Under the pieces are notes generated by a model. The model searched no databases and was not told where the DNA came from. It worked only from the letters and a program-made list of their open reading frames with translations. The position numbers and the translations under genes were made by a program. A DNA stretch of 64,000 nt from Agrococcus baldri (GTDB lineage: Bacteria > Actinomycetota > Actinomycetes > Actinomycetales > Microbacteriaceae). Every line of letters starts with the position of its first letter. The first letter of the stretch is position 1. This document shows positions 32,472 through 47,799 of the stretch, piece after piece. The stretch is from contig FOZN01000003.1 in NCBI GenBank assembly GCA_900114805.1, forward strand, positions 186,001 through 250,000, in the 5' to 3' direction.

Positions 32472-32491
32472 CCAGATGAACGTTACTCGAA

Positions 32492-32516: not shown

Positions 32517-32524
32517 GTCTTGCA

Positions 32525-32558
32525 GGGCTCTCCGCTTTTGAGCGGGGAGTCCTTTTTT
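32525..32558 (+). terminator. Rho-independent terminator of tRNA-Gln
   Basis: The stem (32525-32536 with 32541-32552) contains GU/AT wobble pairs and is followed by six T residues (32553-32558). It is one of few terminators in the window with a proper U-tract. Confidence 0.8.
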
Positions 32559-33411
32559 GTTGCGCGGTGTGGCCCGCGCTGCCGCCCTGTGTGGCCTCGT
32601 TCAGCCCTCGGACGGCACGGTTAACCTTGCTGCGCTCGGCGGCCACCTCTGTGCGCTCGTCGCGCACGAAGACGGCCAGGTGCTCGAAGCACGCCAGCAA
32701 GAGGTCTCGGCGCACCGTGTCGGATGCACGTTTGTAGAGCTCTTCCGGAGACGCTAGTAGGTCCATGAAGGCGACTGCTGTGTCAGCGCCGTACTGGAGA
32801 CGATCGGCCGTCTGCTCGAGCCTCTCCTGCAGCGCTGCCTTCGCTAAGGTCGTGTGCTCGATGCGCTCTCGGATCTTGGTAATCGGCAGTGTTCCCGAAG
32901 CGGCCAGGTCGATCAGCCGCTCCTCCTGCCGTTCCAACTTGCCAAGCTGCTTCCGCAGTTGAGCCTTGGCATCGCGATCCTCGGCCAGCAGGTTGTCGAC
33001 CGCGCCAGTCAACGCCTCGCGCATGTCATCGAGGGCTTCGGTGCTCAGTCGTTCGCGCGACACCACTTCCAGGAGGCGATCCTCAATCTGTTCGACGCGG
33101 CTCCACGGCATCGAGCACTGCTTGCGCTGCTTGGCCGCACAGACGAGGTACTCGTAGGTGCCGCCGTTCCCGTTGACCTGGCTGTAGATCAGGCGGCTGG
33201 TTCGCCCTTCCTCCGCGCAGTGCCCGCACCGCAACAACCCCTTCAAGTAGTGATGGTGCGTGATGTCCCGATCGCCCTGTCGCTTGCGCTGATCCAAGAT
33301 CTCCTGCACTTTGAGGAACGTCTCCTTGGTGACGAGCGGCTCGTGGCGACCGACGTAGAGTTTGCCCTTATCGCGCATGGGTCTGCTGCACGGATAGGTG
33401 ACGGTTCCTAG

Positions 33412-34455
33412 TCACGCCGCCAGTGCGGCGGGCGTGTTCATGATGGTCTCGAACTCGATGGGGGTCAAACGCCCGAGCGCGGCCTGTCGGCGGCGGCGGT
33501 GATAGGTCCGTTCGATCCAGGTCACGATCGCGATGCGCAGCTCGTCACGAGTGGCCCACGAGCGGCGGTTGAGGACGTTCTTCTGCAGCAGCGAGAAGAA
33601 GCTCTCCATGGCCGCGTTGTCGCCCGCGGCGCCGACTCTGCCCATCGATCCGACCATGCGGTGACGCGTCAGGGCGCGCAGGAACTTCCGGCTTCGAAAT
33701 TGCGATCCGCGGTCGCTGTGGACCACGCACCCGGCGACTCCACCGCGCATTGCGGCGGCGTTGTCCAGCGCGCTCACGGCCAGTCTGGACTTCATCCTGG
33801 AGTCGATCGAGTAGCCGACGATCTTGTTCCCGAAGACGTCCTTGATGGCGCAAAGGTAGAGCTTGCCCTCGGCGGTGCGATGTTCGGTGATGTCGGTCAG
33901 CCAGAGCTGGTTCGGGGCGATAGCGGTGAAGTCCCGGCCGACGAGGTCGTCGTGGACTGGCGGGCCGGCCTTCTTCCCACCGCCACGGGCCTTCTTCTTC
34001 CCGAACGCGCTCCACCAGCCGTGCTGAGACGCGATCCGCCACGCGGTGCGATCCGCCATCGGCTCACCGGCCTCGCGGGCCTCGTCAGCGAGCAGCCGGT
34101 GCCCGAACTCTGGATCGTCGTGGTGCGCGTCATACAGAGCGTTCGCGCGATACGCCTCCACCACCTCGCTCGGCGTGATGGGGTTCGCCAGCCACCGGCA
34201 ATAGGGCTGGCGAGCGAGCTTGAGCACCCGGCACGTCACCGTCACGGGGATCCCCGCAGCGGCGAGCTCGGTCACGAGCGGGTAGAGCCTTTTCCCGGCA
34301 GGTTCGCCTGCGACAGATACGCCGCCGCCCGCCGCAGGACCTCGTTCTCCTGTTCCAGCAGCCGGTTGCGCTTGCGCAGTTCGCGGATCTCCGCCGACTC
34401 GCTTCGCATCTGGCCAGGCGCCGATCCGTCTTCGACCTTGGCCCGCTGGAGCCAC
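33412..34455 (-). CDS. IS3-family transposase OrfB (DDE integrase)
   Basis: The functional part starts near residue 54 (RLYPLVTELAAAGIPVTVTCRVLKLARQPYCRW, the HTH_21-like region) and continues through the rve integrase core. The DDE triad is visible as TDITEH, HSDRGSQ and NAAMESFF, and a YHRRRRQAALGRLTPIEFE tail is typical. It is probably made as an OrfAB fusion by -1 frameshifting from orfA; the upstream in-frame residues are orfA read in the other frame. The gene looks intact. Confidence 0.92.
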   Translation of the reverse strand: MAPAGQGRRRIGAWPDAKRVGGDPRTAQAQPAAGTGERGPAAGGGVSVAGEPAGKRLYPLVTELAAAGIPVTVTCRVLKLARQPYCRWLANPITPSEVVEAYRANALYDAHHDDPEFGHRLLADEAREAGEPMADRTAWRIASQHGWWSAFGKKKARGGGKKAGPPVHDDLVGRDFTAIAPNQLWLTDITEHRTAEGKLYLCAIKDVFGNKIVGYSIDSRMKSRLAVSALDNAAAMRGGVAGCVVHSDRGSQFRSRKFLRALTRHRMVGSMGRVGAAGDNAAMESFFSLLQKNVLNRRSWATRDELRIAIVTWIERTYHRRRRQAALGRLTPIEFETIMNTPAALAA

Positions 34456-34613
34456 TTCTGCAACGTCATCGGATGGACCCCGAAGTCGTGCGCGATCTGC
34501 TCGATCGTGACGCCGGGTTCACGGTGCCGCGCGACGCGGACGACGTCGTCACGGAACTCACTCGGGTAGGGCTTGGGCACGATGGCATCCTTCCAGGCCT
34601 GCCCCTCGGGCAA
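34272..34613 (-). CDS. IS3-family transposase OrfA
   Basis: 113-aa HTH protein (PSEFRDDVVRVARHREPGVTIEQIAHDFGVHPMTLQKWLQRA) followed by a leucine-zipper-like helix (IRELRKRNRLLEQENEVLRRAAAYL). It binds the inverted repeats. An internal GTG at 34580 is an alternative start. It ends just past the run used for frameshifting into orfB. Confidence 0.92.
   Translation of the reverse strand: MPEGQAWKDAIVPKPYPSEFRDDVVRVARHREPGVTIEQIAHDFGVHPMTLQKWLQRAKVEDGSAPGQMRSESAEIRELRKRNRLLEQENEVLRRAAAYLSQANLPGKGSTRS
34288..34296 (-). other. Putative -1 programmed frameshift site, orfA/orfB
   Basis: On the coding strand GGGAAAAGG places an AAAA run where the orfA reading (GGA AAA GGC) can slip back to AAA AGG and enter the orfB frame. 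Position and type match the usual IS3-family mechanism. Confidence 0.6.
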
Positions 34614-34649
34614 GCCAGATCAGATGTCACCTACACGTGCAGCAGACCC

Positions 34650-34895
34650 GATCTGCGGGCGCAGCTGGACGTCATCGCCCAACTCAACGACCGCAGCGTC
34701 ACCGAAGAGATCCGCCTGGCTCTCGAGTCCTGGGTTCAGACCAGCAAGTCCGATCCCAAGGTTCTCGCCCGAGCTGAGACGGTCAGGGCTGAGATCGACC
34801 GCGAGGCCAAGACCAAGCAGTCGGCAATCGAGGCCATCTTCGGAGGACCGGCGGCGAGCAAGCCTCCCCGCCAGACCAAGCAGGCACCCGCCTGA
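34650..34895 (+). pseudogene. Ribbon-helix-helix protein, 5' end removed by the IS
   Basis: 81 remaining codons begin exactly at the IS right end with DLRAQLDVIAQLNDRSVTEEIRLALESWV, a ribbon-helix-helix pattern, then a basic, Pro/Lys tail (SKPPRQTKQAPA). The start codon and first strand are lost or supplied by IS sequence, where the frame happens to stay open. It may have been a plasmid or ICE partition/antitoxin-type regulator. Confidence 0.6.
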
Positions 34896-34904
34896 ACGGT
34901 GGTG

Positions 34905-34947
34905 GCTGGACCCGGGCTTGAGAGCAATCGCTCTCGCCTGGGCCAGC
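34905..34947. terminator. Hairpin after the RHH fragment
   Basis: GAGAGC (34920-34925) and GCTCTC (34930-34935) form the core of a longer imperfect GC-rich stem. It separates the truncated gene from the DUF3846 gene. Confidence 0.5.
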
Positions 34948-35032
34948 TGCCGCCCGACCAGCCTCGTTGTCCCGCTGCGGCTTGCCAGGTGAACGATCGC
35001 GTTCGCCGGCCGCACGAAGGCAAGGAGGAACC

Positions 35033-35632
35033 ATGACTACAGCGGTATGGATCCAGGCCGACACTATCTGGTCGCCGAGCATCATCGAGGTCGATGAGAT
35101 GGCGGACTACCAGTCACTGGTGGACGGCTGGGTCGAAGCGCTTCAGGTGCCGAGCCTCGGCATCACGATCTTCGTCAACGAGGAAGGTCGGCTGAGACGG
35201 CTGAAGTTTAACGCCAGGGCATCCCTGCTGTGGTGGCAGCGCACACCGGAGGCACGCAACCAGATGATCTGCGGTGACGCCGTCATCGTCGGCACACCCG
35301 ACGCCACCGGCAAGTCGACGGACGCACCGGACGATCTCGTCACGATGCTGACCGAGGATGGCTTGTTCGCCGTCCTGGTGAAGATCCCGTACGAAGACCA
35401 GGGCGTGTACGTCGATCCGGTCACAGGCACGAGCAACCACGTCGTGCCCCTACCTCCGAGCATGGAGGGCTGGTACGTCTGTCAGGGGATGTACCCGGAC
35501 TACTTCTCTGCAGCAGTCTGGGCGATGCTCATCGAGGAGCGGTGGGCCTCCGTCGACGACACCAAGGTCGCGTCGGTCGCCGGGATGGAGCACTTGTTCC
35601 CGAAATTCATGCAACGCCGGTCGACAGACTGA
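35033..35632 (+). CDS. DUF3846 domain protein
   Basis: 199-aa protein. Residues 1-90 match DUF3846 (DEMADYQSLVDGWVEALQV...ITIFVNEEGRLRRLKFNARASLLWW...ICGDAVIVG). Such proteins are found on actinobacterial plasmids and integrative elements. The second half (CQGMYPDYFSAAVWAMLIEERW) is not recognised. A strong AAGGAGGAA site precedes ATG 35033. Function is unknown; it supports a mobile-element origin for this stretch. Confidence 0.75.
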   Translation: MTTAVWIQADTIWSPSIIEVDEMADYQSLVDGWVEALQVPSLGITIFVNEEGRLRRLKFNARASLLWWQRTPEARNQMICGDAVIVGTPDATGKSTDAPDDLVTMLTEDGLFAVLVKIPYEDQGVYVDPVTGTSNHVVPLPPSMEGWYVCQGMYPDYFSAAVWAMLIEERWASVDDTKVASVAGMEHLFPKFMQRRSTD

Positions 35633-35642
35633 CCGGCTATCC

Positions 35643-35698
35643 GGCGGCAGCCTCCTGGGATCGAGAGCGACGCGCTCTCTCCCGGGTGGGCTGCCGCC
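35643..35698 (+). terminator. Two-tier hairpin terminator after the DUF3846 gene
   Basis: An outer 10-bp perfect stem (GGCGGCAGCC 35643-35652 with 35689-35698) encloses an inner GAGAGC/GCTCTC stem. It starts 11 bp after the stop codon. Confidence 0.75.
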
Positions 35699-35768
35699 TG
35701 TTTCACGTTGGAGAGTCCGCTGTGGAGAACTTCTACGACTTATCTGCCGCTCTCGCTAGCGTGCTGAA

Positions 35769-35939
35769 ATGCCAGACATCTTCGACGAGCTCGACTTCCG
35801 CTGCCCGAAGTGCAACGTCCTCGTGTACGACGAGCGCTGTCGTGGTTGCGGGTATGTCATCGAGGCGCTCCGGATCCCTGAAGTTGAATCGAAGCGTGTG
35901 GCGGGGCACGACGATGTGCCAGGGATCGGTGGTTGGTAG
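35769..35939 (+). CDS. Very small zinc-ribbon protein (56 aa)
   Basis: A 57-codon frame that encodes two CxxC knuckles, CPKC at residues 12-15 and CRGC at 24-27, the spacing of a rubredoxin-like zinc ribbon. The tail is acidic and ends GIGGW. TAGCGT at 35757-35762 lies 6 nt before the ATG, the leaderless pattern of this genome. Paired cysteines and a promoter make it a likely real gene of unknown function; it could contact a nucleic acid or a partner protein. Confidence 0.65.
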   Translation: MPDIFDELDFRCPKCNVLVYDERCRGCGYVIEALRIPEVESKRVAGHDDVPGIGGW

Positions 35940-36005
35940 CGAGTTAATGTCACCGGCTCGACGTACCGTCGTGGCATCGGCTTGTCCCCAGCAAAGGCGG
36001 TTGTC

Positions 36006-36647
36006 ATGGATCCCTCGCAGCACGTTCCCTCGCTCACGCACCTGCGTGACTTCGCCCGAGCACGGAAGGCCGGGCGCCGCACACACGTCGCCCAGGACCG
36101 CGCCCAAGTGACCGCACCAATCGGTGAGCGGTTTCCGGCCTTCTATTACGAGAAGTTCCTGAGCGCGGTCATCGAGTACATCGACAACGGCTGCTTCGGA
36201 GGGGCACTCGAACGTGTCGTCGAGGCCGCTTCGGCGCGAAAGCGTGCAAGTTACGCCGCGGCGGCACGCGGCATGACGGTAATGCTCTCTGAACTCCGGC
36301 CGATTGCGGCGAAGCGGAAGCAGCGGAATGTGGTCGTCAATGACAAGTACGTCCAGCTCGTGAGCTTACGTATCCACCTGCTGATCGAACTGGCAGATTA
36401 CTCGGTGGTCGCGGCGCACTTCTACTTCTCAGAGAAGGCGCTGACCGAGGTGGAGCTGCGTCTAATGGAGACTTCCATCGCCCTCGCCTCGCTGGAGTCG
36501 GTCCCTGGTGCCGCGCCCGCAATCGCCATGGCGCGCTCTGGTCGTCTGCATCTGATTGACGTAGCCGAGGCGACGTCGGCAGATCGAGTCGAAGAGCTGC
36601 GCGATGCGTCCGAGGCATACCTCGACGAGTGGCGGGCCGCGGCGTGA
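36006..36647 (+). CDS. Hypothetical protein, island cargo
   Basis: 213-aa soluble, mostly helical protein (if ATG 36006 is used; an in-frame start at 35982 adds eight residues). No signal peptide, membrane segment or known motif was recognised. Central segments such as YYEKFLSAVIEYIDNGCFGG and LRIHLLIELADYSVVAAHFYFSEKALTEVELRLME suggest a helical repeat or bundle. It is followed 30 bp later by another unknown gene with its own leaderless promoter. Confidence 0.7.
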   Translation: MDPSQHVPSLTHLRDFARARKAGRRTHVAQDRAQVTAPIGERFPAFYYEKFLSAVIEYIDNGCFGGALERVVEAASARKRASYAAAARGMTVMLSELRPIAAKRKQRNVVVNDKYVQLVSLRIHLLIELADYSVVAAHFYFSEKALTEVELRLMETSIALASLESVPGAAPAIAMARSGRLHLIDVAEATSADRVEELRDASEAYLDEWRAAA

Positions 36648-36676
36648 CGGGTCAACAGAACTCGATACCGTCGAGC

Positions 36677-37135
36677 ATGACCAACACACCTGCGCTCCGC
36701 ATTGGTGATTCCAGCGCTCAGATCGCAGCTGAGTCCGTGCTCCTGGCGGCCGCGTCGAAAGCGCTGGGTGTTGAATTGTCGCCGTCTCGCGTTCATGTCG
36801 GTGATGTCTACATCGACGTCGACGGCGTTGACCCCGGGCGGACGGTGCTTGTCGAAGCGACTGCAATGATCGGGGCGCCGAAGGCTGCGCAGCAGAAGAA
36901 GCTTGCCGCTGACGTCCTCAAGCTCGGGTGGGCAAGTCGCACGCTCGGAGACGTCCGGTGTGTCATCGTCACCTGGAGCCCAGAGGTCCAGGCCTTCCTC
37001 TCACGGCCGCGTGCTTGGCTGACGGCAGCGCGACTCGAAGCCGGCGTAGAGCTGATCCTGGCTGAACCCGACGACACAGCCTTCGTTGCAGTCTCTGCAG
37101 CCCGGCTCGCGCAGGATAGATACGCGATGGAGTAA
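36677..37135 (+). CDS. Hypothetical protein, possible PD-(D/E)xK-like fold
   Basis: 152-aa protein. VYIDVDGVDPGRTVLVEATAM and QQKKLAADVLKL have the layout of a restriction-nuclease-like core: an Asp on one strand, Glu on the next, and a Lys/Gln-rich helix. However, the exact E-x-K is absent, so nuclease activity is uncertain. TACCGT at 36666-36671 lies 5 nt before ATG, so it is probably leaderless. Its position just before the restriction-Gabija operon makes a defence link plausible but unproven. Confidence 0.65.
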   Translation: MTNTPALRIGDSSAQIAAESVLLAAASKALGVELSPSRVHVGDVYIDVDGVDPGRTVLVEATAMIGAPKAAQQKKLAADVLKLGWASRTLGDVRCVIVTWSPEVQAFLSRPRAWLTAARLEAGVELILAEPDDTAFVAVSAARLAQDRYAME

Positions 37136-37155
37136 TCAACAGGTCATTGCGTCTA

Positions 37156-37186
37156 TTCAACAATTCTCGCAATTGTGCGATAATTG
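37156..37186 (+). promoter_or_regulatory. Promoter with 26-bp palindrome, upstream of hsdM
   Basis: A -35-like TTCAAC (37156-37161) and -10 GATAAT (37179-37184) are 17 bp apart. Over them lies an inverted repeat, 11-nt arms 37161-37171 and 37176-37186 around ATTG, with 10 of 11 positions matching. It lies 160 bp before hsdM in the 210-bp gap 37136-37345. The rest of the gap holds only a weak 6-bp hairpin at 37201-37226. Confidence 0.65.
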
Positions 37187-37345
37187 TCACAGATTGCAAT
37201 AGCCGGTTCGAGCCTCGCTCCCGGCTGAATCGAGTCCAGGCCCCGCGCGCCGTGCTGACGTTCTGTCAGTACGCGCCGATACGGTGGCCAAGGAGCCCCC
37301 AGCGCCAACCAACGCACGCCCTCAGCGTGGAGGAGAACAGAACAC

Positions 37346-38917
37346 ATGCCGCCGACCACCAAAGAAGCCCAGCGCGCCGAGCTGCACAAGACCATCTGGC
37401 GCATCGCCAACGACCTGCGAGGCAGCGTCGACGGATGGGACTTCAAGAGTTACGTGCTCGGCATGCTGTTCTACCGCTTCATCTCGGAGAACCTCACGGC
37501 ATACATCAACGTCGGCGAGCGCGAGGCCGGACACCCCGACTTCGACTACTCCAAGCTCGCTGACAAGGATGCCGAGTTCGGGCGGGCCGACACGGTATCG
37601 GAGAAGGGCTTCTACATCCTGCCTTCGGAGCTCTTCCAGAACGTCCGGAAGCGCGCGAGCGACGACGAGAACCTCAATGAGACCCTGGCTGGCATCTTCG
37701 CCGACATCGAGGGCTCCGCGAAGGGCACAGACAGTGAGGATGACCTCAAGGGTCTGTTCCATGACCTCGATGTCAACAGCCCGAAGCTCGGCAGCACTGT
37801 CGCGAAGCGCAATCAGAAGCTCGTAAAGTTGCTCGACGCGATCGGTGATCTGCCGCTCGGTAACTTCGAGGACAACTCGATCGACCTGTTTGGCGACGCG
37901 TACGAGTACCTCATGCAGATGTATGCCTCTCAGGCGGGCAAGTCCGGTGGTGAGTACTACACGCCGCAGGAAGTGTCAGAACTGCTGGCTCGGATCACCG
38001 TTGTCGGCAAGACCAGCGTCAATAAGGTCTACGACCCGGCGGTCGGCTCGGGATCCCTGCTGCTCAAGTTCGCCAAGGTGCTGGGCAAGGAGAACGTTCG
38101 CCAGGGCTTCTATGGCCAGGAGATCAACCTGACCACCTACAACCTCGCGCGGATCAACATGTTCCTGCACGACGTCAACTACGAGCAGTTCAACCTCGCC
38201 CACGGTGACACTCTGATCGACCCTGCGCACTGGGACGATGAGCCGTTCGAAGCGATCGTTTCCAATCCTCCATATTCGATTTCATGGGAGGGCGATGCGA
38301 ACCCGCTCCTGATCAATGACCCGCGCTTTGCGCCGGCCGGAGTGCTTGCGCCGAAGTCCAAGGCTGACCTTGCCTTCACGATGCACATACTTTCGTGGCT
38401 GGCGGTAAACGGCACCGCCGCCATCGTCGAGTTCCCTGGCGTGCTCTACCGTGGCGGCGCGGAGAAGAAGATCCGCCAGTACCTCATCGACAACAACTAC
38501 GTCGATGCCGTCATCCAGTTGCCGCCGGACCTGTTCTTCGGAACAGGCATTGCAACCTGCATCATCGTGCTCAAGAAGTCCAAGGCCGACAACAGCGTTC
38601 TGTTCATCGATGCGTCAACTGAATTTTCGCGCGTTGGAACGAAGAACAAGCTGCAGGCGGTCAACCAGGCCAAGATTCTTGATTCACTGGTTGCTAGGAG
38701 CGCGGTCGCTCACTTCTCTGCGCTGATCCCGAATGAGCAGATTGCACAGAATGACTACAACCTCGGCATTTCTTCGTACGTGGAGCAATCGGTCGTGGAG
38801 GATAATCTGGATATTGCCCAACTCAACGCCCGAATCGCCGATATTGTAGAGCGGCAAGCGGAGTTGAGGACGATCGTCGATCGAACCGTTGCTGACATCG
38901 AGGGGATGGTCGGATGA
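37346..38917 (+). CDS. hsdM: Type I restriction-modification, methyltransferase subunit
   Basis: 523-aa N6-adenine methyltransferase subunit. An N-terminal helical HsdM_N domain (TIWRIANDLRGSVDGWDFKSYVLGMLFYRFIS) precedes the SAM site DPAVGSGSLLL (near residue 230) and the catalytic NPPYS (near 306). Length is usual. It methylates the host target and joins HsdS and HsdR in the R2M2S1 complex. Its stop overlaps hsdS as ATGA. GC content is high, like the chromosome. Confidence 0.96.
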   Translation: MPPTTKEAQRAELHKTIWRIANDLRGSVDGWDFKSYVLGMLFYRFISENLTAYINVGEREAGHPDFDYSKLADKDAEFGRADTVSEKGFYILPSELFQNVRKRASDDENLNETLAGIFADIEGSAKGTDSEDDLKGLFHDLDVNSPKLGSTVAKRNQKLVKLLDAIGDLPLGNFEDNSIDLFGDAYEYLMQMYASQAGKSGGEYYTPQEVSELLARITVVGKTSVNKVYDPAVGSGSLLLKFAKVLGKENVRQGFYGQEINLTTYNLARINMFLHDVNYEQFNLAHGDTLIDPAHWDDEPFEAIVSNPPYSISWEGDANPLLINDPRFAPAGVLAPKSKADLAFTMHILSWLAVNGTAAIVEFPGVLYRGGAEKKIRQYLIDNNYVDAVIQLPPDLFFGTGIATCIIVLKKSKADNSVLFIDASTEFSRVGTKNKLQAVNQAKILDSLVARSAVAHFSALIPNEQIAQNDYNLGISSYVEQSVVEDNLDIAQLNARIADIVERQAELRTIVDRTVADIEGMVG

Positions 38918-40104
38918 TCGCTGCGGATGTATTCACGACTGTTCGGAAGAAGGTGCGTCTTTCTGACGTGACGTCGGAGAGTAGAGAGCGGAACATCGAT
39001 CGACTCGTGACCGATGTACGAACGGTCACGAATCAACAACAACTGATCCCGACCGCAGACTTCTTTGCGAACGCGCGCACCAGCGAGGACACGAAGAACT
39101 ATAAGATCGCTCGTCCGGGTGCGTTCGTTTACAACCCTTCTCGAATCAATGTGGGCTCGGTTGCTTCGGTTGTGGGCGACAAGCCGGTCATAGTCAGCCC
39201 AATGTATGTAGTCTTTGACGTCGATCAATCGTGCGTGTTGCCACGATATCTAATGCATTTCCTGACCTCCCGAGCAGGTCGCCGAATGATTGAGGGTGGA
39301 GTCGAGATCGGCGCTCGCTTTCGACTTACCTATGCGAGTCTTTCGAAGTTTGTCATTAGCTTGCCAAGTCTCCAAGTGCAACAAGCGATTGTCGACGCGC
39401 TTGGCGACTTCGAACGACTTATTGACGCCCTTGAGGAGGAGTCGGATCTCCGGCGTTTGCAGTACGTTCACTACGCTGACCGTCTTGTCGCCAGCGGCGA
39501 GAAGACCAGCAGTGCCCTGCTCGGTGATGTGGCGACCGTAGTTCGAGGGGCTTCGCCGAGACCGATTCAGGAGTTTCTTACCGACAATGCCGACGGTATT
39601 CCTTGGATAAAGATTGGCGATGTTGCGACCGGCGAGAAGTACATTACTTCGACATCTCAGCGAGTGACGAAAGCAGGCGCGGAGAAGTCGCGTCGAGTTC
39701 GGCCGGGTGACTTTGTGCTCTCTAACTCCATGAGTTTTGGTCGCCCCTATATATCCAAGATCGACGGCTGTATTCATGATGGCTGGCTTGCCATAAGTGC
39801 TTTTGACGACGCCTTCATTCCAGACTACCTCTATCACCTGTTGCGTTCCTCCATAATTCAGGCAGAGTTTTCGCGACGCGCGGGTTCGGGCGCGGTACGG
39901 AATCTCAACTCCGAAATTGTGAGGTCTGTGCGAGTGCCTGTCCCTTCGCGCATCGAACAGGAGCGAGTGGTGGTTAGGCTCGATGGTTTCGAGAAGCTTG
40001 CCAACGACTCCTCGAGCGGCATCCCTGCAGAGGGCAAGCTCAGGCGACGACAGTACGAGTACTACCGCGACAAGCTCCTGACCTTCGAGGAGCTGCCAGC
40101 ATGA
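38914..40104 (+). CDS. hsdS: Type I restriction-modification, specificity subunit
   Basis: 396-aa DNA-recognition subunit with two target-recognition domains and two helical spacers. The spacers end in related repeats (EEESDLRRLQYVHYADRLV near residue 180 and KLRRRQYEYYRDKLLTF at the end), the usual HsdS duplication. The DNA is clearly more AT-rich than hsdM or hsdR, consistent with exchange of recognition domains. It overlaps hsdM and hsdR by 4 bp each. The target sequence cannot be predicted by eye. Confidence 0.93.
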   Translation: MIAADVFTTVRKKVRLSDVTSESRERNIDRLVTDVRTVTNQQQLIPTADFFANARTSEDTKNYKIARPGAFVYNPSRINVGSVASVVGDKPVIVSPMYVVFDVDQSCVLPRYLMHFLTSRAGRRMIEGGVEIGARFRLTYASLSKFVISLPSLQVQQAIVDALGDFERLIDALEEESDLRRLQYVHYADRLVASGEKTSSALLGDVATVVRGASPRPIQEFLTDNADGIPWIKIGDVATGEKYITSTSQRVTKAGAEKSRRVRPGDFVLSNSMSFGRPYISKIDGCIHDGWLAISAFDDAFIPDYLYHLLRSSIIQAEFSRRAGSGAVRNLNSEIVRSVRVPVPSRIEQERVVVRLDGFEKLANDSSSGIPAEGKLRRRQYEYYRDKLLTFEELPA

Positions 40105-43100
40105 ACGAGCTCAGCAACCGCAAGTACGACCCGATCGCCATCAGCAGCGAGAGCACCGTGGTCGCCGAGTACATCCCGGACGCGGCGCAGCAGTCGGCGT
40201 ATCAGTCGGAGGCAGAGCTCGAGCGCGAGTTCATCCGACTTCTGGAGTCGCAGGCCTACGAGCGCCTGACGATCACGTCAGAGGCTCAACTGGTGGACAA
40301 CCTCCGGGTTCAGCTCGAGGCGCTCAACGGCATCGCGTTCTCCGACGAGGAGTGGACGCGCTTCTTCAACGAGCGGATCGCCGGAGCTAACGACGGCATC
40401 GTCGAGAAGACGCTGCGTATCCAGGAAGACCACGTTCAGGTCCTGACTCGTGATGACGGCTCGACGAAGAACATCACCCTGCTCGACAAGCGTCACATCC
40501 ACAACAACCGGCTGCAGGTCATCAACCAGTACGAGACCAGCCAAGAACAGGGTGCCAAGCACGCGACTCGCTTCGACGTGACCGTGCTGGTCAACGGGCT
40601 GCCGATGGTTCACGTCGAGCTGAAGCGCCGCGGTGTCGACATCCGTGAGGCCTTCAATCAGATTGACCGCTATCAGCGAGACAGCTTCTGGGCCAGTTCC
40701 GGCTTGTTCGAGTACGTCCAGCTGTTCGTGATCAGCAACGGCACCCTGACGAAGTACTACTCGAACACCACGCGCCGCGAGCACCTCAGCGAAGAGACTG
40801 GCAAGCGCAAGTCTCGCAAGACCTCGAACTCCTACGAGTTCACCTCCTGGTGGGCGGACGCGCAGAACAAGCCGATCCAGGATCTGACGGCGTTCGCCAA
40901 GACCTTCTTCGCCAAGCACACGCTGCTCAACATCCTGACGCGCTACTGCGTCCTCACCGCCGACCGCATGTTGCTGGTGATGCGGCCGTACCAAATCGTG
41001 GCGACCGAGAAGATTCTTCAGAAGCTCGAGATCTCGACGAACTACAAGCAGCTCGGCACGATCGATGCCGGTGGCTACGTCTGGCACACGACCGGCTCGG
41101 GCAAGACCCTGACCAGCTTCAAGGCTGCCCAGTTGGCGTCGAAGGTGCCCAGCGTCGACAAGGTGCTGTTTGTCGTCGACCGCAAGGACCTCGACTACCA
41201 AACCATGAGGGAGTACGACCGCTTCGAGAAGGGCGCGGCCAACTCCAACACCTCGACTGCAGTGCTGAAGAAGCAGCTCGAGGATCCCAACGCCCGGATC
41301 ATCATCACGACGATCCAGAAGCTCGCGACGTTCATCAAGGCCAACAAGGGCCACGACATTTACTCCGGCCACATCGTCATCATCTTCGACGAGTGCCACC
41401 GCTCTCAGTTCGGCGACATGCACTCGGCCATTACGAAGGCGTTCAAGCGGTACAACCTGTTCGGCTTCACCGGCACGCCGATCTTTGCGGCCAACTCCGG
41501 CAGTGGCGGCAATCCCCAGCTGAAGACCACTGAGCAGGCGTTCGGTGAGAAGCTCCACACCTACACAATCGTCGACGCCATCACCGACAAGAACGTCCTG
41601 CCGTTCCGCATCGATTACGTCAACACCGTCAAGGTCGGCAACGTCGTCGACAAGCAGGTTTCGGCGATCGACACTGAGAAGGCTTTGCTCGCACCCGAGC
41701 GCATGAGCCAGGTCGCGGCTTACGTCCTAGAGCACTTCGACCAGAAAACGAAGCGTGCCGAGCACTACACGCTGGGGGAGCGGCGCGTCCGCGGCTTCAA
41801 CGCCCTGTTCGCCACTGCCTCGATCGATGCGGCTCGTCTCTACTACCAACTGTTCGCACTGCAGCAGGAACAGCTGCCGCCGGCCCGCCGCTTGAAGATC
41901 GCCACGATCTTCTCGTACGCCGCCAATGAGGCAGTCGAGGACGGTGCGCTCGAGGAAGAAGGCTTCGACACCAGCGCCCTCGACGGAGACGCTCGGTCGT
42001 TCCTCGAGGAGGCGATCAAGGACTACAACCGGATGTTCGGCACGAGCTTCGACACCTCGTCCGATCGCTTCCAGAACTACTACAAGGACCTGTCGCTACG
42101 GCTGAAGCAGCGCGAGATCGACCTGGTCATCGTGGTCAACATGTTCCTGACTGGCTTTGACGCCACCACGCTGAACACCCTGTTCGTCGACAAGAACCTG
42201 CGCACCCACGGCCTGATCCAGGCATACTCCCGCACCAACCGCATCCTGAACTCGGTCAAGACCTACGGCAACATCGTTTCGTTCCGCGACCTCGAGGAAG
42301 CGACCAACGACGCCATCGCGCTGTTTGGCAACAAGGACGCCCGCGGCGTCGTCCTGCTGAAGCCGTACGGCGAGTACTACAGCGACTACGCCGACAAGGT
42401 CACCGAGCTTCCCGAAGCGTTCCCGCTCGGAATTCCGATCGTTGGCGAGGCTGCACAGAAGACATTCATTGCTCTGTTCGGAGCCATCCTGCGCCTGCAG
42501 AACATCCTGACCTCGTTCGACGACTTCGTCGGCAACGAGATCGTCAATGAGCGCCAGATCCAGGACTACCGCAGCGTCTACCTCGACCTGTACGCCGAGT
42601 TCCGCAAGGACAAGGACGGCGACAAGGAACTGATCAACGACGACGTCGTCTTCGAGATCGAGCTCATCAAGCAGGTCGAGATCAACGTCGACTACATCCT
42701 GATGCTCGTCCAGAAGTACCGCGCGGAGCGCGGCGACGGCGACGATAAGGAGATTCGGGCTGAGATCGCCCGGGCGGTCGACTCCAGCCCGAGCCTGCGC
42801 AACAAGAAGGACCTGATTGAGGACTTCGTCGACTCCGTCTCAACCGACGGCGCGCTCGATGAGGAGTGGCGAGCCTTCATCGCAGCCCGACGCGAGGCCG
42901 AGTTGAACGCCATCGTCGATGACGAGGGTCTCCGGCCCGAAGCCACGCGCGAGTTCATTGACAACGCGTTCCGTGACGGCAACGTCCGCACCAGCGGAAC
43001 GGCCATAACGAAGGTGCTGCCGCCGGTGTCACGCTTCGCCGCTGGCGGCAATCGCGCGGAGAAGAAGGAGCGAGTACTCACTCGCCTGAGCCAGTTCTTC

Positions 43101-43148
43101 GAGCGATTCTTTGGGCTTGGTGCGCAGGAGGATCAGGGTTCGTCATGA
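40101..43148 (+). CDS. hsdR: Type I restriction-modification, restriction/translocase subunit
   Basis: 1015-aa motor-nuclease. The N-terminal PD-(D/E)xK domain shows FDVTVLVNGLPMVHVELKRRG. The SF2 helicase core has Walker A (TTGSGKTLTSFKAA, near 332), DECH (FDECHRSQFGD, near 429), GFTGTPIF and the arginine-finger motif QAYSRTNRIL. A C-terminal helical region contacts HsdM. It starts inside the hsdS stop (ATGA). After a 19-bp gap comes a 55-codon gene and then the Gabija genes on the same strand. Confidence 0.96.
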   Translation: MNELSNRKYDPIAISSESTVVAEYIPDAAQQSAYQSEAELEREFIRLLESQAYERLTITSEAQLVDNLRVQLEALNGIAFSDEEWTRFFNERIAGANDGIVEKTLRIQEDHVQVLTRDDGSTKNITLLDKRHIHNNRLQVINQYETSQEQGAKHATRFDVTVLVNGLPMVHVELKRRGVDIREAFNQIDRYQRDSFWASSGLFEYVQLFVISNGTLTKYYSNTTRREHLSEETGKRKSRKTSNSYEFTSWWADAQNKPIQDLTAFAKTFFAKHTLLNILTRYCVLTADRMLLVMRPYQIVATEKILQKLEISTNYKQLGTIDAGGYVWHTTGSGKTLTSFKAAQLASKVPSVDKVLFVVDRKDLDYQTMREYDRFEKGAANSNTSTAVLKKQLEDPNARIIITTIQKLATFIKANKGHDIYSGHIVIIFDECHRSQFGDMHSAITKAFKRYNLFGFTGTPIFAANSGSGGNPQLKTTEQAFGEKLHTYTIVDAITDKNVLPFRIDYVNTVKVGNVVDKQVSAIDTEKALLAPERMSQVAAYVLEHFDQKTKRAEHYTLGERRVRGFNALFATASIDAARLYYQLFALQQEQLPPARRLKIATIFSYAANEAVEDGALEEEGFDTSALDGDARSFLEEAIKDYNRMFGTSFDTSSDRFQNYYKDLSLRLKQREIDLVIVVNMFLTGFDATTLNTLFVDKNLRTHGLIQAYSRTNRILNSVKTYGNIVSFRDLEEATNDAIALFGNKDARGVVLLKPYGEYYSDYADKVTELPEAFPLGIPIVGEAAQKTFIALFGAILRLQNILTSFDDFVGNEIVNERQIQDYRSVYLDLYAEFRKDKDGDKELINDDVVFEIELIKQVEINVDYILMLVQKYRAERGDGDDKEIRAEIARAVDSSPSLRNKKDLIEDFVDSVSTDGALDEEWRAFIAARREAELNAIVDDEGLRPEATREFIDNAFRDGNVRTSGTAITKVLPPVSRFAAGGNRAEKKERVLTRLSQFFERFFGLGAQEDQGSS

Positions 43149-43167
43149 CTGGGTGGGAGTGGTCGTG

Positions 43168-43335
43168 ATGGCAATCAACCTGCTTCCTGGCGACGTCTGT
43201 GTCGGCCACCCCTTCGGTGATTACGCACGTGACGAGCACGTCGTTGCGTTGATGGATGCATCGGTGCCGAGATGGCAAACACTACTTTATGAACTGAACA
43301 GCGCGCCTTTGGCGGAACAGGAGCGACAACTCTAA
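43168..43335 (+). CDS. Unknown 55-aa protein between HsdR and GajA
   Basis: A short frame, MAINLLPGDVCVGHPFGDY..., with GGGAG upstream of ATG 43168. Its TAA stop overlaps the GajA ATG as TAATG, so translation of the nuclease is probably coupled to it. The N-terminus (LLPGDVCVGHPFGDYARDEHVVALMD) looks like a small beta-rich fold. No family is recognised. An upstream TTG at 43111 would extend it into hsdR and is less likely. It could be a regulator, an inhibitor or an accessory subunit. Confidence 0.6.
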   Translation: MAINLLPGDVCVGHPFGDYARDEHVVALMDASVPRWQTLLYELNSAPLAEQERQL

Positions 43336-45470
43336 TGCATATATCCAAGCTGAGCATGGTCAACTTCCGAAATTTCTCTAGCACCGAGTTCCACTTCACC
43401 GCGGGTGTAAACACTGTGATCGGTGAGAACGGCACAGGCAAAACGAACCTGTTTCGCGCGATACGACTGCTTCTCGACGAGAGCATGCTACCCGCTGCGT
43501 ATCGGTTGAACGAGGGTGACTTCCATCGCGGCCTTACGAATTGGAGAGGTCATTGGATTGTCATCAGCGCCGAATTTGCGAATATAACTATGGACGAATC
43601 GGTGCAAGCTTTATTCGTGCATGGCACGGGAAATCTCGAAGAGGAGCCGGTCGACACCGCGACCTTCAACCTCATCTTTCGGCCGCGGAAGGATGTACGA
43701 GCAGGCCTGGCCGCACTCACCGATGGCGACGAGATAGCAATGCGCGCCATCCTGGACCCGCTCACAATCGATGACTACGAGACTGTTTTCACCGGTCGGA
43801 GCACAGCAGATTTCAGCGACCCCGAACTCTATAGGTCGATCGTCGGCGACTTCGACAATGTGATCTTCAGCGACGAGACTGAGTTTCCCGAACTGGGCGC
43901 AATGCTGCCGAGACAGCTTGCTGTTGCCAAAGAAGTCTCTTTCTCACACATTCAGGCGCTCCGCGACGTAGTACAGGACTTCCAGAACAATCGGGCAAAT
44001 CCACTTCGAACGCTATTGAGAATCAAGAGCGGCGAGATCGACACTGCCGGATTCAAGACAATCGCCGACAAGGTACTTGAACTCAACAAGTCGATCGAAG
44101 AGTGGCCTGACGTCGAGGAAATCAGTGGTGACATAAAGCAAACAATCAAGGACGCGGTTGGTGAGGCATACTCGCCGTCGTCGCTGAATATCAAGTCCGA
44201 TCTCCCTGGCGATGCCGATCGCCTGTTCCAGTCACTGAAGCTCTTCGTGGGTGAGGACGGCGCGGATTATGAAGGTGGTATCCACGAACTGAGCCTTGGA
44301 GGAGCCAACTTGATATACTTAACTCTCAAGCTCCTTGAGTTCAAGTATCAGAAGGCCAAGCAGGCTGTTGCGAACTTCCTCCTCATTGAAGAGCCTGAAG
44401 CGCACATCCACACACACATCCAAAAGACGTTGTTCGACCGTCTAAATTACAGCGATACTCAGATAATCTATTCGACCCACTCCACGCAAATCTCGGAGGT
44501 GAGCAAGGTCGAGAGTATGAACATCGTTGGTCGCGACAATGGACGATGCGAGGCTTATCAGCCTTCACGTGGCTTGGAGCCGACCCAAATTGTGCATGTC
44601 CAGAGGTATCTCGACTCGGTTCGAAGCAATCTCCTCTTTGCTCGAAGCGTGTTGCTTGTCGAAGGTGACGCAGAAGAGATCTTGATCCCGGCACTGATCA
44701 AGAAGGTCTTGGGAATAGGTCTGGATGAACTTGGGATCAGCCTTATCAATATCCGTAGCACTGGATTCGAAAACGTGGCGCTGCTCTTCCATGATGAACG
44801 CATCCGGAAGAGGTGCAGCATCATTAGTGACCTGGATGCCGCGTTCTTCGACACGACTGCCGACACCAAGGACGATGAATCGCGTGTAAAGCTCAAGAAG
44901 CGGGCGCGTGCATCAGAGACATCGGGCGCCGCTAGAAAAGTTCGACTCGACGCCTTTGCGTCCGGCAACCAATGGGTTTCCACGTTCTATGCGGACCACA
45001 CTCTCGAGGTTGATTTTGTTAAAGTTGGAAACGCGCCTGCTGCGGTAGGTGTAATCGACGATGTGTACGTCGATCCTCCAACGCGCGCGACGGCTAAATT
45101 GTCCTTAGAGTCTGACGACAGCTTCCGCTACGGGCATCGAATCCTTACGATGGCTAAGTCAGCGGGTAAGGGGTGGTTCGCGATCCTTCTTGCTGGCAAG
45201 CTTGACCATCACGTCGTGATCCCCGGATATCTCTTGGATGCACTGTGTTTCGCGCATCCCGTGATTAGCAGGGAGACATGGTTCAACATTTTTACTTATC
45301 GGATTGCTCTTGATGAGCTGGAGGCAATCACAGAGGCAACCGTGCGTGAATCGTTCTTAGCGCGCTTGCAAGAATACCGTCGGGGTGACCTCGCGTTCGC
45401 GGATGTTAAGTCCGAGTTCGCGGAGGCTTTTCCTTCAGATCGAATTAATGAAGTATTGGGTCGCTACTAA
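43335..45470 (+). CDS. gajA: Gabija GajA-like OLD-family ATP-dependent nuclease
   Basis: 711-aa class 2 OLD protein. The ABC-type ATPase half has Walker A (GENGTGKTN, residues 30-38), signature ELSLGGAN (318-325), Walker B (FLLIEEPEAHIH, 348-359) and the switch His in STHSTQIS. The Toprim half follows, with the metal-binding glutamate in LLVEGDAEE (440-448) and the DxD in ISDLDAAFFD (497-506). The adjacent UvrD-like helicase gene defines the Gabija arrangement. It is longer than the studied Bacillus protein. Codon use is notably AT-richer than hsdR. Confidence 0.88.
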   Translation: MHISKLSMVNFRNFSSTEFHFTAGVNTVIGENGTGKTNLFRAIRLLLDESMLPAAYRLNEGDFHRGLTNWRGHWIVISAEFANITMDESVQALFVHGTGNLEEEPVDTATFNLIFRPRKDVRAGLAALTDGDEIAMRAILDPLTIDDYETVFTGRSTADFSDPELYRSIVGDFDNVIFSDETEFPELGAMLPRQLAVAKEVSFSHIQALRDVVQDFQNNRANPLRTLLRIKSGEIDTAGFKTIADKVLELNKSIEEWPDVEEISGDIKQTIKDAVGEAYSPSSLNIKSDLPGDADRLFQSLKLFVGEDGADYEGGIHELSLGGANLIYLTLKLLEFKYQKAKQAVANFLLIEEPEAHIHTHIQKTLFDRLNYSDTQIIYSTHSTQISEVSKVESMNIVGRDNGRCEAYQPSRGLEPTQIVHVQRYLDSVRSNLLFARSVLLVEGDAEEILIPALIKKVLGIGLDELGISLINIRSTGFENVALLFHDERIRKRCSIISDLDAAFFDTTADTKDDESRVKLKKRARASETSGAARKVRLDAFASGNQWVSTFYADHTLEVDFVKVGNAPAAVGVIDDVYVDPPTRATAKLSLESDDSFRYGHRILTMAKSAGKGWFAILLAGKLDHHVVIPGYLLDALCFAHPVISRETWFNIFTYRIALDELEAITEATVRESFLARLQEYRRGDLAFADVKSEFAEAFPSDRINEVLGRY

Positions 45471-45472
45471 AA

Positions 45473-47266
45473 ATGCTTGTCAGCGATCGAGGTGCACTGA
45501 ATGCTGAGCAGGAAGCTGCGATCGCGGAGCCTGGAAGCGTCTTCCTGATTGCATGTCCAGGCAGCGGCAAAACTCGAACACTCACCTATAAGGTCGCGAG
45601 TGAGTTGGAGAAGATCGATTCTCATCGAAGCTTTGTAGCCGCCATTACCTATACGCATCGGGCAGCAGATGAAATCGAGGAGCGGATCTCTGGCCTGGGC
45701 GTGGACACGTCACAGTTGTGGATTGGGACTATCCACGCTTTTTGCTTAGAGTGGATTCTCAAGCCGTATGGGAAGTATCACCCCGACTTGCAGTATGGTT
45801 TTCAGGTGATCAATTCCCATGAAAGTGAAGTCATTCTTAAGCGGCTTTGTGCCACCTCTCGAAATCCGGCCGTGACAACCTTCGACTGCGACTACTACTT
45901 CACGGACTCGTCGATGGAGCTTGGTTGTAGAACAGCGTCGAAAATCCCAAGCGTGCACCGGATCCTGCAGGAATATTTCGGCGAATTGCACGCGTCGCGC
46001 CAGATCGACTTCGAGCACATTCTCAAGTATGCGTTCGAAATTGTCAGAGATAATCCGTCGGTTAGCACGATCCTTTCGCAGATCTTCACTTTCATCGCGA
46101 TCGACGAGTACCAGGACACGAAGCAGGTCCAGTATTCGATCCTTGGAGCGATAATCAAGGCCGGCGCTGGTTCCACTCGAACTCTGATTGTGGGAGACCC
46201 AAATCAGTCGATCTTCGCTTCGCTTGGCGGATACGCAATCGCCCCGGGCGACTTTCGCTCACTTATCGGCGTGCCTTTGAGGGAAATGGCTCTCTCTCGA
46301 AACTACAGATCGTCCGAGCGTATAATCGACTATTTTGGAAACTTCAACGTGCATGGAACTCTGATAGAGGCCGCATCGGAGCACGCTGCCTACGCCAGCG
46401 CGATCACGTTTGATAATGTGACCACAAGGAACGAGTTGGAGACCGAACTTGCGCGCCTCATCCGACACAATATTGAGGTAGAGGGAGTTTCCCCAAACGA
46501 AATCTGCGTCGTGGCGCCTTGGTGGATCCACCTCGCTCATATGACCAGGCGGCTCGTTGCCTTGATGCCCGAGTATGAGTTCGATGGGCCAGGCTTGGTT
46601 CCGTTCTCCCGCGACATCGACAACTTTTGGTACAAGTTGGCAAAGCTTGCACTGACAGAGGCATCGCCGCGTATGTTCGTTCTCAGGCTGCGGTGGGCGG
46701 GCGACATAATCAACGACTTGGAGCTAGCTGGCGTCGACACGTCTCGGATTTCAAGGAGATCGCTTCTCCGGGAATCAAATTCCATCGCTCCTCCGGATGT
46801 CGAGGGTCTCGATTACTTGGCGTCCTATTTCCGGACTCTTTTCGAGAATCTAAGTATCGACTATGCGCAGTACCGTCCTCTGCAAGAACAACATGATGCA
46901 TTCTTTGCCAGTTCGCGACAACGAGTTGATCGATTAGTTGCCGAAGGTGCTCCTTACGTCAGTGACATTGCTACTTTTCGGCGGGTCTTCCGTCCGCGAA
47001 CGGGCATCACTGTCTCAACGATTCACGGCATCAAGGGCGCGGAGTTCGATACTGTAGTGGCGTTTGCGTTGCTGGATGGCATGGTTCCTCACTTTAGTGA
47101 TGCCGATCAACTCGATAGTGCCAAGAAGCTCATGTACGTAATTGGTTCTCGCGCACGCAAGCATCTGCACTTGATTGCTGAGCGCGGCAGAACGAAAAAG
47201 GGCAATTGGCCGGACTACGATACAACGATTCCATTGAAGAACTTGCAATATGCCTACGACCGTTAG
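45473..47266 (+). CDS. gajB: Gabija GajB-like UvrD/REP helicase
   Basis: 597-aa superfamily 1A helicase. Motif I is CPGSGKTRT (28-36), motif II DEYQD (211-215), motif III GDPNQSIF, motif V VSTIHGIKGAEFD, and motif VI YVIGSRARKHLHL. Partner of GajA in phage defence, in which nucleotide or DNA-end sensing triggers DNA cleavage. The ATG lies 2 bp after the gajA stop, so the two are co-translated. GC content resembles gajA and not the chromosome. Confidence 0.88.
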   Translation: MLVSDRGALNAEQEAAIAEPGSVFLIACPGSGKTRTLTYKVASELEKIDSHRSFVAAITYTHRAADEIEERISGLGVDTSQLWIGTIHAFCLEWILKPYGKYHPDLQYGFQVINSHESEVILKRLCATSRNPAVTTFDCDYYFTDSSMELGCRTASKIPSVHRILQEYFGELHASRQIDFEHILKYAFEIVRDNPSVSTILSQIFTFIAIDEYQDTKQVQYSILGAIIKAGAGSTRTLIVGDPNQSIFASLGGYAIAPGDFRSLIGVPLREMALSRNYRSSERIIDYFGNFNVHGTLIEAASEHAAYASAITFDNVTTRNELETELARLIRHNIEVEGVSPNEICVVAPWWIHLAHMTRRLVALMPEYEFDGPGLVPFSRDIDNFWYKLAKLALTEASPRMFVLRLRWAGDIINDLELAGVDTSRISRRSLLRESNSIAPPDVEGLDYLASYFRTLFENLSIDYAQYRPLQEQHDAFFASSRQRVDRLVAEGAPYVSDIATFRRVFRPRTGITVSTIHGIKGAEFDTVVAFALLDGMVPHFSDADQLDSAKKLMYVIGSRARKHLHLIAERGRTKKGNWPDYDTTIPLKNLQYAYDR

Positions 47267-47342
47267 TTCATGAGCAATGGCTTTGAGTGAAGGCGCACAA
47301 GAAGGACCTAGGGCGAAGGGGCTGATCGATCGCAAACTTAGC

Positions 47343-47690
47343 TCACGTGGATGACTTCTTCCGCGGCGCCTTCGCCCGCATCTCCACGCCACTGCGGTGC
47401 AGTGCGCGCATTACCGCGCCGTGCGAGAGTCCGAACTTCCTCTCCAGCTCTCGCATCGTGGCTCCGGCCTCATAGTTCTCAGCCAAGCGCCGTGCTTCCG
47501 TCTCCGTGACTTTCTGCTTCGTCACAACCACGTCATGTTCGCGGAGGAGCCGCACGAGTGCCGATGGCGCGACCTCGTACTGCTTGGCTAGTGACCGCGC
47601 GCTTGCACCGGCCGCAGCTCTGCTTACGATCTCTGTGATTGCTTCAGTGCTGAGCCGCTTCTTCAGTGCCTGCGCCCGGTACGAGGGTGT
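47343..47690 (-). pseudogene. Serine recombinase C-terminal remnant with two HTH units
   Basis: An open minus-strand frame encodes two tandem resolvase-type helix-turn-helix units: AITEIVSRAAAGASARSLAKQYEVAPSALVRLLREHDV and EARRLAENYEAGATMRELERKFGLSHGAVMRALHRSGVEMR, then a basic tail. The only start codon (GTG 47555) cuts off the first unit. The frame stays open to 47831 with no start, and no catalytic domain is present. It reads as the decayed tail of a recombinase, different from the one at 32-33 kb. The rest of 47267-47958 holds no other gene, only a terminator and operator. Confidence 0.6.
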
Positions 47691-47799
47691 ATTGCTCGAA
47701 CCCTGGTCTCGATCGCCAGGGACCGCCAGCTTCCGCAGCTGACTAGGGTTAAACCCCGCTCTGCAATGGTTCGAGCAGACGTCAAGTAGGCCAGCAGTA

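Follow-up and report, generated by a model that had tools for sequence, protein, structure and literature searches.

The locus considered here lies in a 64,000-nucleotide stretch of the Agrococcus baldri genome, referred to as the window, and consists of six ORFs on the forward strand, the first three of which encode a type I restriction system. The methyltransferase subunit HsdM (37346..38917, 523 aa) matched TIGR00497 with 729 bits as well as N6_Mtase and HsdM_N, the specificity subunit HsdS (38914..40104, 396 aa) contains two Methylase_S stretches (PF01420, PDLC03057), and the EcoR124-type motor/nuclease subunit HsdR (40101..43148, 1015 aa) carries HSDR_N, SWI2_SNF2 and EcoR124_C and matched PDLC03048 with 1180 bits. 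These are followed by a 55-codon ORF with an ATG start (43168..43335), which matched the YgjP profile and is a probable YgjP-like remnant; a longer, TTG-opened version of its frame begins at 43111. The last two genes are gajA (43335..45470, 711 aa), encoding an OLD-family ATPase-TOPRIM nuclease (PDLC00072, 999 bits over residues 1-709; PF20469; AAA_15), and gajB (45473..47266, 597 aa), encoding a UvrD-like helicase (PDLC00127, 799 bits; PF00580). The ORF coordinates give successive gaps of -4, -4, +19, -1 and +2 nt, which confirms the preliminary description of 4-bp overlaps among the hsd genes, of a small ORF 19 nt past hsdR that overlaps gajA by 1 nt (TAATG), and of gajB 2 nt further on. Its six-gene operon holds in order and spacing, but the content is better given as five intact genes and one probable remnant: the five large genes look intact, and the PADLOC, Pfam and NCBIfam models for GajA, GajB, HsdM and HsdR were matched over their full or nearly full length. 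A complete EcoR124-like (type IC) gene set is present in one operon, with HsdM, a two-target-domain HsdS and an HsdR combining nuclease, SF2 motor and EcoR124_C, together with a Gabija pair in which GajA has the ATPase and the OLD-type TOPRIM and the UvrD-like GajB lies directly 3'. The accessory defence genes are co-directional with the hsd genes, with gaps of at most 19 nt, in one likely transcription unit.

The operon is carried by a genomic island of approximately 15.3 kb (32475..47795), with putative ends at the 3' end of a tRNA-Gln (CTG) gene (32400..32474, forward strand) and at a hairpin that was probably the tRNA's own. The G+C content of the island is 52-66% in 2-kb windows vs 72% outside, and two genomes of the same genus (G413 and G399) have 0.5 and 2.9 kb between the corresponding flanks. 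Near the left end, a large serine recombinase gene, interrupted by an IS3-like element, survives in part on the reverse strand (32637..33378, an extent taken from the matched residues; phrog_95, 1e-31; Zn_ribbon_recom), and no direct repeat of at least 12 nt of the tRNA 3' region was detected within 33000-52000. Within the operon, GC3 is 0.80 in hsdM and 0.88 in hsdR vs 0.62 (gajA), 0.61 (gajB) and 0.59 (small ORF), a contrast that fits separate donors for the hsd and gaj genes, although hsdS is also low (0.61).

In a consensus scan, promoter-like sites on the forward strand were detected only at 37157, 5' of hsdM, and at 46297, within gajB. The former overlaps an imperfect palindrome rich in A+T (37160-37187, 22 of 28 positions; the composite site spans 37157..37187), a possible operator. 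The absence of a visible internal promoter or terminator, as described previously, was borne out for the forward strand between 43148 and 43335, but the scan says little either way, since its counts were near shuffle level (4 promoters vs 3.5, 11 terminators vs 9.0). It is the tight co-directional packing that suggests a single transcription unit from hsdM to gajB. Alternatively, gajAB could retain a promoter of its own within hsdR or the small ORF.

The 55-codon ORF had no match in Pfam, PADLOC, NCBIfam or PHROG, nor among the Gabija relatives at an E-value of 1e-3. A search of 396 genomes of the order gave matches at E-values up to 0.01 in seven genomes, its own included: two of these (loci L154 and L155) are the C-termini of YgjP proteins adjoining hsdR, and four others (L156-L159) sit in larger frames. 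Residues 21-52 of the small ORF align to columns 207-238, in the C-terminal part of a YgjP profile, with 16.8 bits, compared with a best score of 5.3 bits in 2000 shuffles, the match covering approximately 32 residues and the YgjP family having been reached via the small ORF's own weak hits. Pairwise, four of five YgjP homologues matched at 45-52% over 26-30 residues, and the fifth (L343) gave no match; the similarity is a short one, as the lack of a Pfam match for the 55 residues also indicates. The zinc motif of YgjP-like (M48/PF01863) metallopeptidases is HExxH. It is present as HEMTH or HELTH in L154 and L155 and absent from the 55 residues, so the small ORF is to be regarded as a remnant and not as a member of this family. 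In five hsdR-linked loci examined (L279, L280, L346, L347 and L343), an intact ygjP overlaps hsdR by 4-14 nt. Such linkage was found in four of the 30 loci fetched in a YgjP family search, namely the four best-scoring ones, and no hsd gene was present within about 1.5 kb in the remaining 26. The 55-codon ORF is probably the C-terminal remnant (approximately 32 residues) of an hsdR-linked YgjP-like (M48) metallopeptidase, and its sole present role may be translational coupling to gajA. The possibility of a new gene was rejected, based on the lack of family matches and on the identity of the L154 and L155 matches as YgjP C-termini. More generally, caution is called for with short ORFs in closely packed operons, as they can represent what is left of lost genes.

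For GajA, the residues K36, H382, E443, D499, D501 and K612 are invariant across 24 aligned sequences, and the best Foldseek match of its predicted model, which is of middling quality (pLDDT 76, pTM 0.67), in the pdb set was Bacillus cereus GajA (8u7i). In the GajA clade, gajB was located directly 3' in 91 of 91 loci, and neither hsdM nor hsdR was found upstream in any of the 87 loci for which 1 kb or more of preceding sequence was available (77 distinct contexts); hsdMSR occurred once downstream of gajB (L082). The translationally linked unit of the preliminary description therefore survives as a tightly packed and probably co-transcribed arrangement, but not as a conserved one: the order hsdMSR-small ORF-gajAB, proposed as a check, is lacking in these relatives, the HsdR relatives bear other tails, and a conserved unit is thereby ruled out for this lineage. 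The hsdMSR-gajAB linkage is not passed on as one block. The layout nevertheless recurs with GajA proteins that are only distantly related, which argues for repeated assembly. In L174, Shedu-GajA-GajB begins 5 nt past hsdR, and in L182, GajA begins 16 nt past hsdR and is followed by a UvrD-type GajB. A weaker third case, L279, has the order hsdMSR-YgjP-GajA-like-GajB-like, with YgjP kept between hsdR and the GajA-like gene. A further candidate (L341, genome G046) was not counted, as no helicase follows the OLD-like gene up to the contig end. When viral contigs were scanned, the L182 GajA retrieved only L182 itself and the L174 GajA had no match.

The 3' end of hsdR was then compared among loci with HsdR at least 55% identical, the window left out. 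Loci were fetched from 40 of the 48 further genomes of the order in which HsdR was matched. A tight co-directional ORF (150 aa or longer, with its start between -30 and +100 nt relative to the hsdR stop) was present downstream in 38 of 64 loci vs 11 of 56 before hsdM (Fisher p 1.4e-5). When each cluster of HsdR proteins at 95% identity was given a single weight, the counts were 33.8/57 and 10.0/51, and among the 52 loci with both sides available, the ORF was present on the downstream side alone in 23, on the upstream side alone in none and on both sides in 10. At 40-55% HsdR identity, a tail was found in just 2 of 48 loci (many near-identical), so the slot is not general. Under a looser rule, 45 tail ORFs (window included) fell into 42 clusters. 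Twenty-eight hand-chosen tails, mostly larger ORFs, were scanned, 17 by PADLOC (12 matches, some partial, as in L161 and L163) and 11 by Pfam only (2 Abi); of the other 16 tails under the looser rule, one (L254) is a piece of hsdR. Thus, 14 of the 28 matched PADLOC models or Abi families, a count that is circular in part since the PDC families in PADLOC were themselves found by embedding (PMC12988326). The remainder includes three of seemingly defensive nature (AAA_5 with EVE, SIR2, reverse transcriptase), three with DUF or GIY-YIG only, six without a match and two housekeeping-like ones (phosphatase, exonuclease). In close relatives, the 3' end of hsdR is a variable tail that often holds other defence genes.

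The explanation that we favor, at a probability of roughly 0.55, is an island-borne modular defence operon. It builds on what was observed, namely the order of the genes, the intactness of their domains, their differing composition, the similarity of the stump to YgjP and the recurrence of the layout. In this explanation, a type IC-like hsdMSR would be followed by a slot that receives other genes time and again, many of which are defensive. The slot would formerly have housed a YgjP-like metallopeptidase, of which the C-terminal stump was left. The gajAB cassette, autonomous and derived from a different donor, would have joined directly onto this stump, giving gajA its TAATG start, and the whole would be read from the promoter before hsdM as a single transcript. 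HsdMSR would form the first, methylation-dependent line and GajAB, simultaneously expressed, a second, methylation-blind one. The benefit of co-expression would be that GajAB, presumably triggered in this host by linear ends unhandled by the host end-processing enzyme, blocks the genomes of phages that slip past or overcome restriction. Speaking against this explanation, closely spaced genes of one orientation are a frequent feature of bacterial genomes, and defence genes tend to cluster in any case.

Pure hitch-hiking, in which gajAB landed behind hsdR by chance and the shared transcription is accidental and of no functional benefit, is unlikely, though it fits the 87 unlinked GajA-clade loci and the fact that the hsdR tails are nearly all different. 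It also gains from plain island clustering: in 297 genomes of the order, at least 6 of 60 listed OLD-TOPRIM matches (35 of them in frames of at least 500 aa) have an HSDR_N match no more than 8 kb away, the positions and orientations being mixed, as matched by eye. However, a tight co-directional ORF is threefold more frequent past hsdR than ahead of hsdM, and at least three more loci have a GajAB-like pair in the slot. A bolder reading is unlikely as well: the slot would be a dedicated exchange site in this HsdR lineage, to which GajAB would be recruited repeatedly because its activity on linear ends or against disarming phages complements restriction, the two forming a synergistic pair. A guard arrangement, like that of PrrC beside EcoprrI, in which anti-restriction proteins disabling HsdMSR would trigger GajAB or expose the phage to it, is improbable. 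PrrC in a type IC locus provides a precedent (PMC12707154), and activation of Gabija by T7 Ocr is stated, citing others, in PMC12255303, but the available part of the cited source (PMC9122126) mentions GajA only as a homologue. Proteins of the AAA_13/PDC-S06 type with weak PrrC matches, which fill the slot after hsdR in L165, L166, L167 and L186, also speak for this arrangement. HsdR makes double-strand breaks, which counts for a direct handoff, as put forward in the preliminary description, where its ends on unmodified phage DNA would be GajAB substrates, both acting in series on one molecule. This seems very improbable: Gabija works at linear DNA ends (PMC12407980), and Shedu, reviewed as another DNA-end sensor (PMC12904381), accompanies Gabija in the L174 tail, but in Pseudomonas the injection of cos ends was not enough by itself to license Gabija, which also required that RecBCD be kept off or missing (PMC12407980), which makes a handoff conditional at best, the neighboring PDDEXK_1 protein pair of the host, probably AdnAB, should protect HsdR-made ends, and the GajA clade lives without an upstream hsdR in the 87 relatives.

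The modular operon resembles several known systems in part. It shares with the Gabija of Bacillus cereus VD045 the adjacent ATPase-TOPRIM GajA and UvrD-like GajB, the GajA fold and the full-length PADLOC models, whereas the proteins here have 711 and 597 aa compared with 578 and 494 in the solved B. cereus chains, the best PADLOC model for GajA is PDLC00072, and the pair is encoded behind hsdR. Embedding-found defence genes inside or beside genes of other systems were reportedly described in a 2024 preprint by Payne et al.; here, in contrast, a complete known system stands at the 3' end of hsdMSR. EcoprrI-PrrC is likewise a type IC hsd operon bearing a second defence, but its accessory is a single embedded tRNase (anticodon nuclease; PMC12707154) and not a two-gene nuclease-helicase system after hsdR. 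The E. coli RRDM island (RptR, hsdMSR with DarTG2, M48 peptidase; PMC12255303) is also a composite type I operon with an M48-type peptidase 3' of hsdR, the peptidases being likened at the level of M48 type; there DarTG2 lies between hsdS and hsdR, whereas here the peptidase is a stump with Gabija after it.

For the building of defence islands, these results mean that a restriction operon may keep its first three genes and swap what hangs behind hsdR. The tails offer natural pairs of restriction with Gabija, Shedu, a CBASS cyclase, AAA_13, Abi or McrB-like proteins for testing synergy between co-transcribed defences, and they provide a simple search rule for new defence genes, namely to read the gene after hsdR.

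The six ORFs of the unit lie on the forward strand as hsdM (37346-38917), hsdS (38914-40104), hsdR (40101-43148), a 55-codon ORF (43168-43335), gajA (43335-45470) and gajB (45473-47266), and ORF calls, translations and reading of the junctions agreed with the preliminary description, with spacings of -4, -4, +19, -1 and +2 nt. The type I restriction-modification and Gabija identities were borne out by PADLOC, Pfam and NCBIfam, which named HsdM, HsdS, HsdR, GajA and GajB. HsdR contains HSDR_N, SWI2_SNF2 and EcoR124_C domains and is therefore type IC-like. In PADLOC, GajA was matched over its full length by PDLC00072 (999 bits), and the GajB model was PDLC00127 (799 bits). GajA residues K36, H382, E443, D499, D501 and K612 were invariant in an alignment of 24 sequences (relatives 41-78% identical); the available text of Cheng et al. 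(PMC8136825) reports that residues of the TOPRIM and ATPase domains matter in B. cereus GajA, and we infer that the invariant positions correspond to these. The closest structures to the predicted GajA fold, a model of middling quality, were B. cereus GajA 8u7i and 8x5i. The absence of a promoter or terminator between hsdR and gajA holds for the forward strand there, but scan counts were near the shuffle level throughout; gene spacing suggests shared transcription of hsdMSR-gajAB. An imperfect 28-nt palindrome (37160-37187; 22/28 positions) spans the promoter-like site 5' of hsdM and is possibly a repressor operator. Immediately 5' of this promoter lies an overlapping co-directional gene pair (36006-36647 and 36644-37135), for which neither a Pfam match nor a convincing PHROG match was found.

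Residues 21-52 of the 55-codon ORF resemble the C-terminal end of YgjP-like peptidases, scoring 16.8 bits (E 8e-4) against a best of 5.3 bits in 2000 shuffles, and among other window ORFs none came near except its own longer frame. Intact ygjP overlaps the hsdR end by 14 nt in L279, L280, L346 and L347 and by 4 nt in L343. In a family search an hsd gene lay nearby in 4 of 30 YgjP loci, and because these were the four best-scoring only, the linkage is confined to one YgjP branch. In an E. coli island an M48 peptidase is located downstream of hsdR, according to the available part of PMC12255303; in the window the 55-codon ORF occupies this place, 19 nt after hsdR. Because of this position and the lack of the HExxH zinc motif, what had been counted as the sixth gene is read instead as a ygjP C-terminal stump that probably remained when gajAB was joined to the operon. 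GC3 is 0.88 in hsdR but drops to 0.59 in the stump and is 0.62 in gajA, a shift consistent with a junction at this point.

Relatives of HsdR were drawn from 40 of the 48 other genomes of the order with a match and from 78 viral-contig loci (from the best 80 of 91 relatives). A tail was defined as a co-directional ORF of at least 150 aa whose start lies between -30 and +100 nt relative to the hsdR stop, and was compared with an ORF ending just before hsdM. Where HsdR was at least 55% identical (viral loci from the best 80 of 91), a tail ORF was present in 38/64 loci versus 11/56 before hsdM (p 1.4e-5), the loci being non-independent and some plain ORFs on either side being spurious. When each HsdR cluster counted once, the values were 33.8/57 downstream versus 10.0/51 upstream at 95% identity and 18.7/36 versus 5.8/31 at 80%, and of 52 loci with both sides, 23 had only a downstream ORF, none only an upstream one and 10 both; weighting and pairing make the contrast firmer. 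At 40-55% HsdR identity a tail ORF was found in 2/48. Under a looser rule there are 45 first tail ORFs (window included), and nearly all differ from one another, falling into 42 clusters. Among 28 scanned tails, picked mainly for size, 14 had a PADLOC or Abi match: GajAB (L182), Shedu-GajAB (L174), a CBASS-type cyclase (L185, 13078-14385, 348 bits, starting 5 nt after hsdR), PDC-S06/AAA_13 proteins (L165, L166, L167, L186), PDC-S60 (L188), PDC-S53 (L201), Orf5 (L195), partly Ppl-like (L161) and partly McrB-like (L163) proteins, AbiH (L197) and AbiTii (L268). The PDC matches are not independent support, since these families were defined by embedding, as stated in the accessible text of PMC12988326.

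Relatives of GajA (91 loci, 40-78% identical) comprised 8 viral-contig loci, the best 80 of 192 named-genome relatives, two plasmids and one genome of the order, and gajB directly followed gajA in all 91. Conserved hsdMSR-small ORF-gajAB linkage, the check previously proposed, was not observed: upstream sequence of 1 kb or more was available for 87 loci (best 80 of 192 named-genome relatives included), representing 77 distinct 300-nt contexts, and in none of them was hsdM or hsdR found upstream of gajA at E up to 1e-3. One of the 87, L082, carries a divergent hsdMSR downstream, and the neighbour in the nearest relative (L043, Agreia, GajA 78%) is an unrelated ORF on the opposite strand. In ten loci gajA is preceded by a Shedu-type gene. 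Nine of these loci (L033, L041, L042, L048-L053) share one upstream context and carry the same Shedu-GajA-GajB segment, on two plasmids (Klebsiella, Azospira), six genome contigs and one viral contig.

Unions of hsdMSR with Gabija were found elsewhere. L174 (G075) has hsdR (75%), followed after 5 nt by SduA and then GajA (PDLC04168, 546 bits) and GajB (PDLC04173, 402 bits); in L182 (hsdM 74%, hsdR 64%) a GajA of 753 aa begins 16 nt after hsdR and is followed by a GajB of 646 aa and a PD-(D/E)XK protein. A weaker case is L279 (G342), with HsdR of another type (25%), where the overlapping ygjP is followed by GajA-like (68 bits) and GajB-like (137 bits) proteins. These are separate assemblies, because their GajA aligns to that of the window at ~25% or over short stretches only. 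Among the matches listed for 297 genomes of the order, paired by eye, at least six had OLD-TOPRIM and HSDR_N no more than 8 kb apart, namely that of the window, G046, G118, G170, G274 and G286. G046 has an OLD-TOPRIM gene after hsdR and no helicase was seen, while in G118 (L343) a gajA-like and gajB-like pair precedes hsdMSR-ygjP by 0.9 kb, all co-directional.

The unit lies in an island (probable ends 32475 and 47795) with a G+C of 52-66% in 2-kb windows over 32-48 kb versus 72% outside, the low-G+C stretch beginning at the tRNA-Gln 3' end. From tRNA-Gln to the right flank (47870 on) the distance is 15.4 kb in the window versus ~0.5 kb in G413 and ~2.9 kb in G399, both of the same genus; in G413 a hairpin directly 3' of tRNA-Gln resembles the window hairpin at 47800. 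The left end retains part of a large serine recombinase, cut by an element bounded by inverted repeats at 33380 and 34648 that was labelled IS3-like by eye. A DUF3846 protein (PF12957, 3e-17) is encoded at 35033-35632. At the right end of the island (47343-47742) both strands carry short ORFs that, judged by eye, may derive from a decayed DNA-binding or recombinase gene.

Type I operons with accessory defence are a known kind, of which hsdMSR-gajAB is a variant; no description of such operons or of the slot 3' of hsdR was found in the literature examined, outside which lies the likeliest place, Payne et al. 2024 (embedding). According to the available text of PMC12407980, Gabija acts on linear DNA left unprocessed by RecBCD, cos ends alone are insufficient, and RecBCD protects host ends. 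In the genome of the window two neighbouring genes with long frames encode PDDEXK_1 proteins that are probably AdnAB. On this basis HsdR-cut ends would be protected by default, becoming accessible to GajAB only when a phage blocked the host end-processing enzyme. It is unlikely that GajAB serves as a guard, triggered by phage anti-restriction proteins that disable HsdMSR, or to which such proteins expose the phage: PrrC offers a precedent by analogy (PMC12707154, in part), and a statement on Ocr in PMC12255303 would agree, but finds no confirmation in the accessible part of PMC9122126. Since HsdR-cut ends would by default be kept from GajAB, the best reading is that HsdMSR and GajAB are two layers expressed together, in which Gabija would be the methylation-blind layer.
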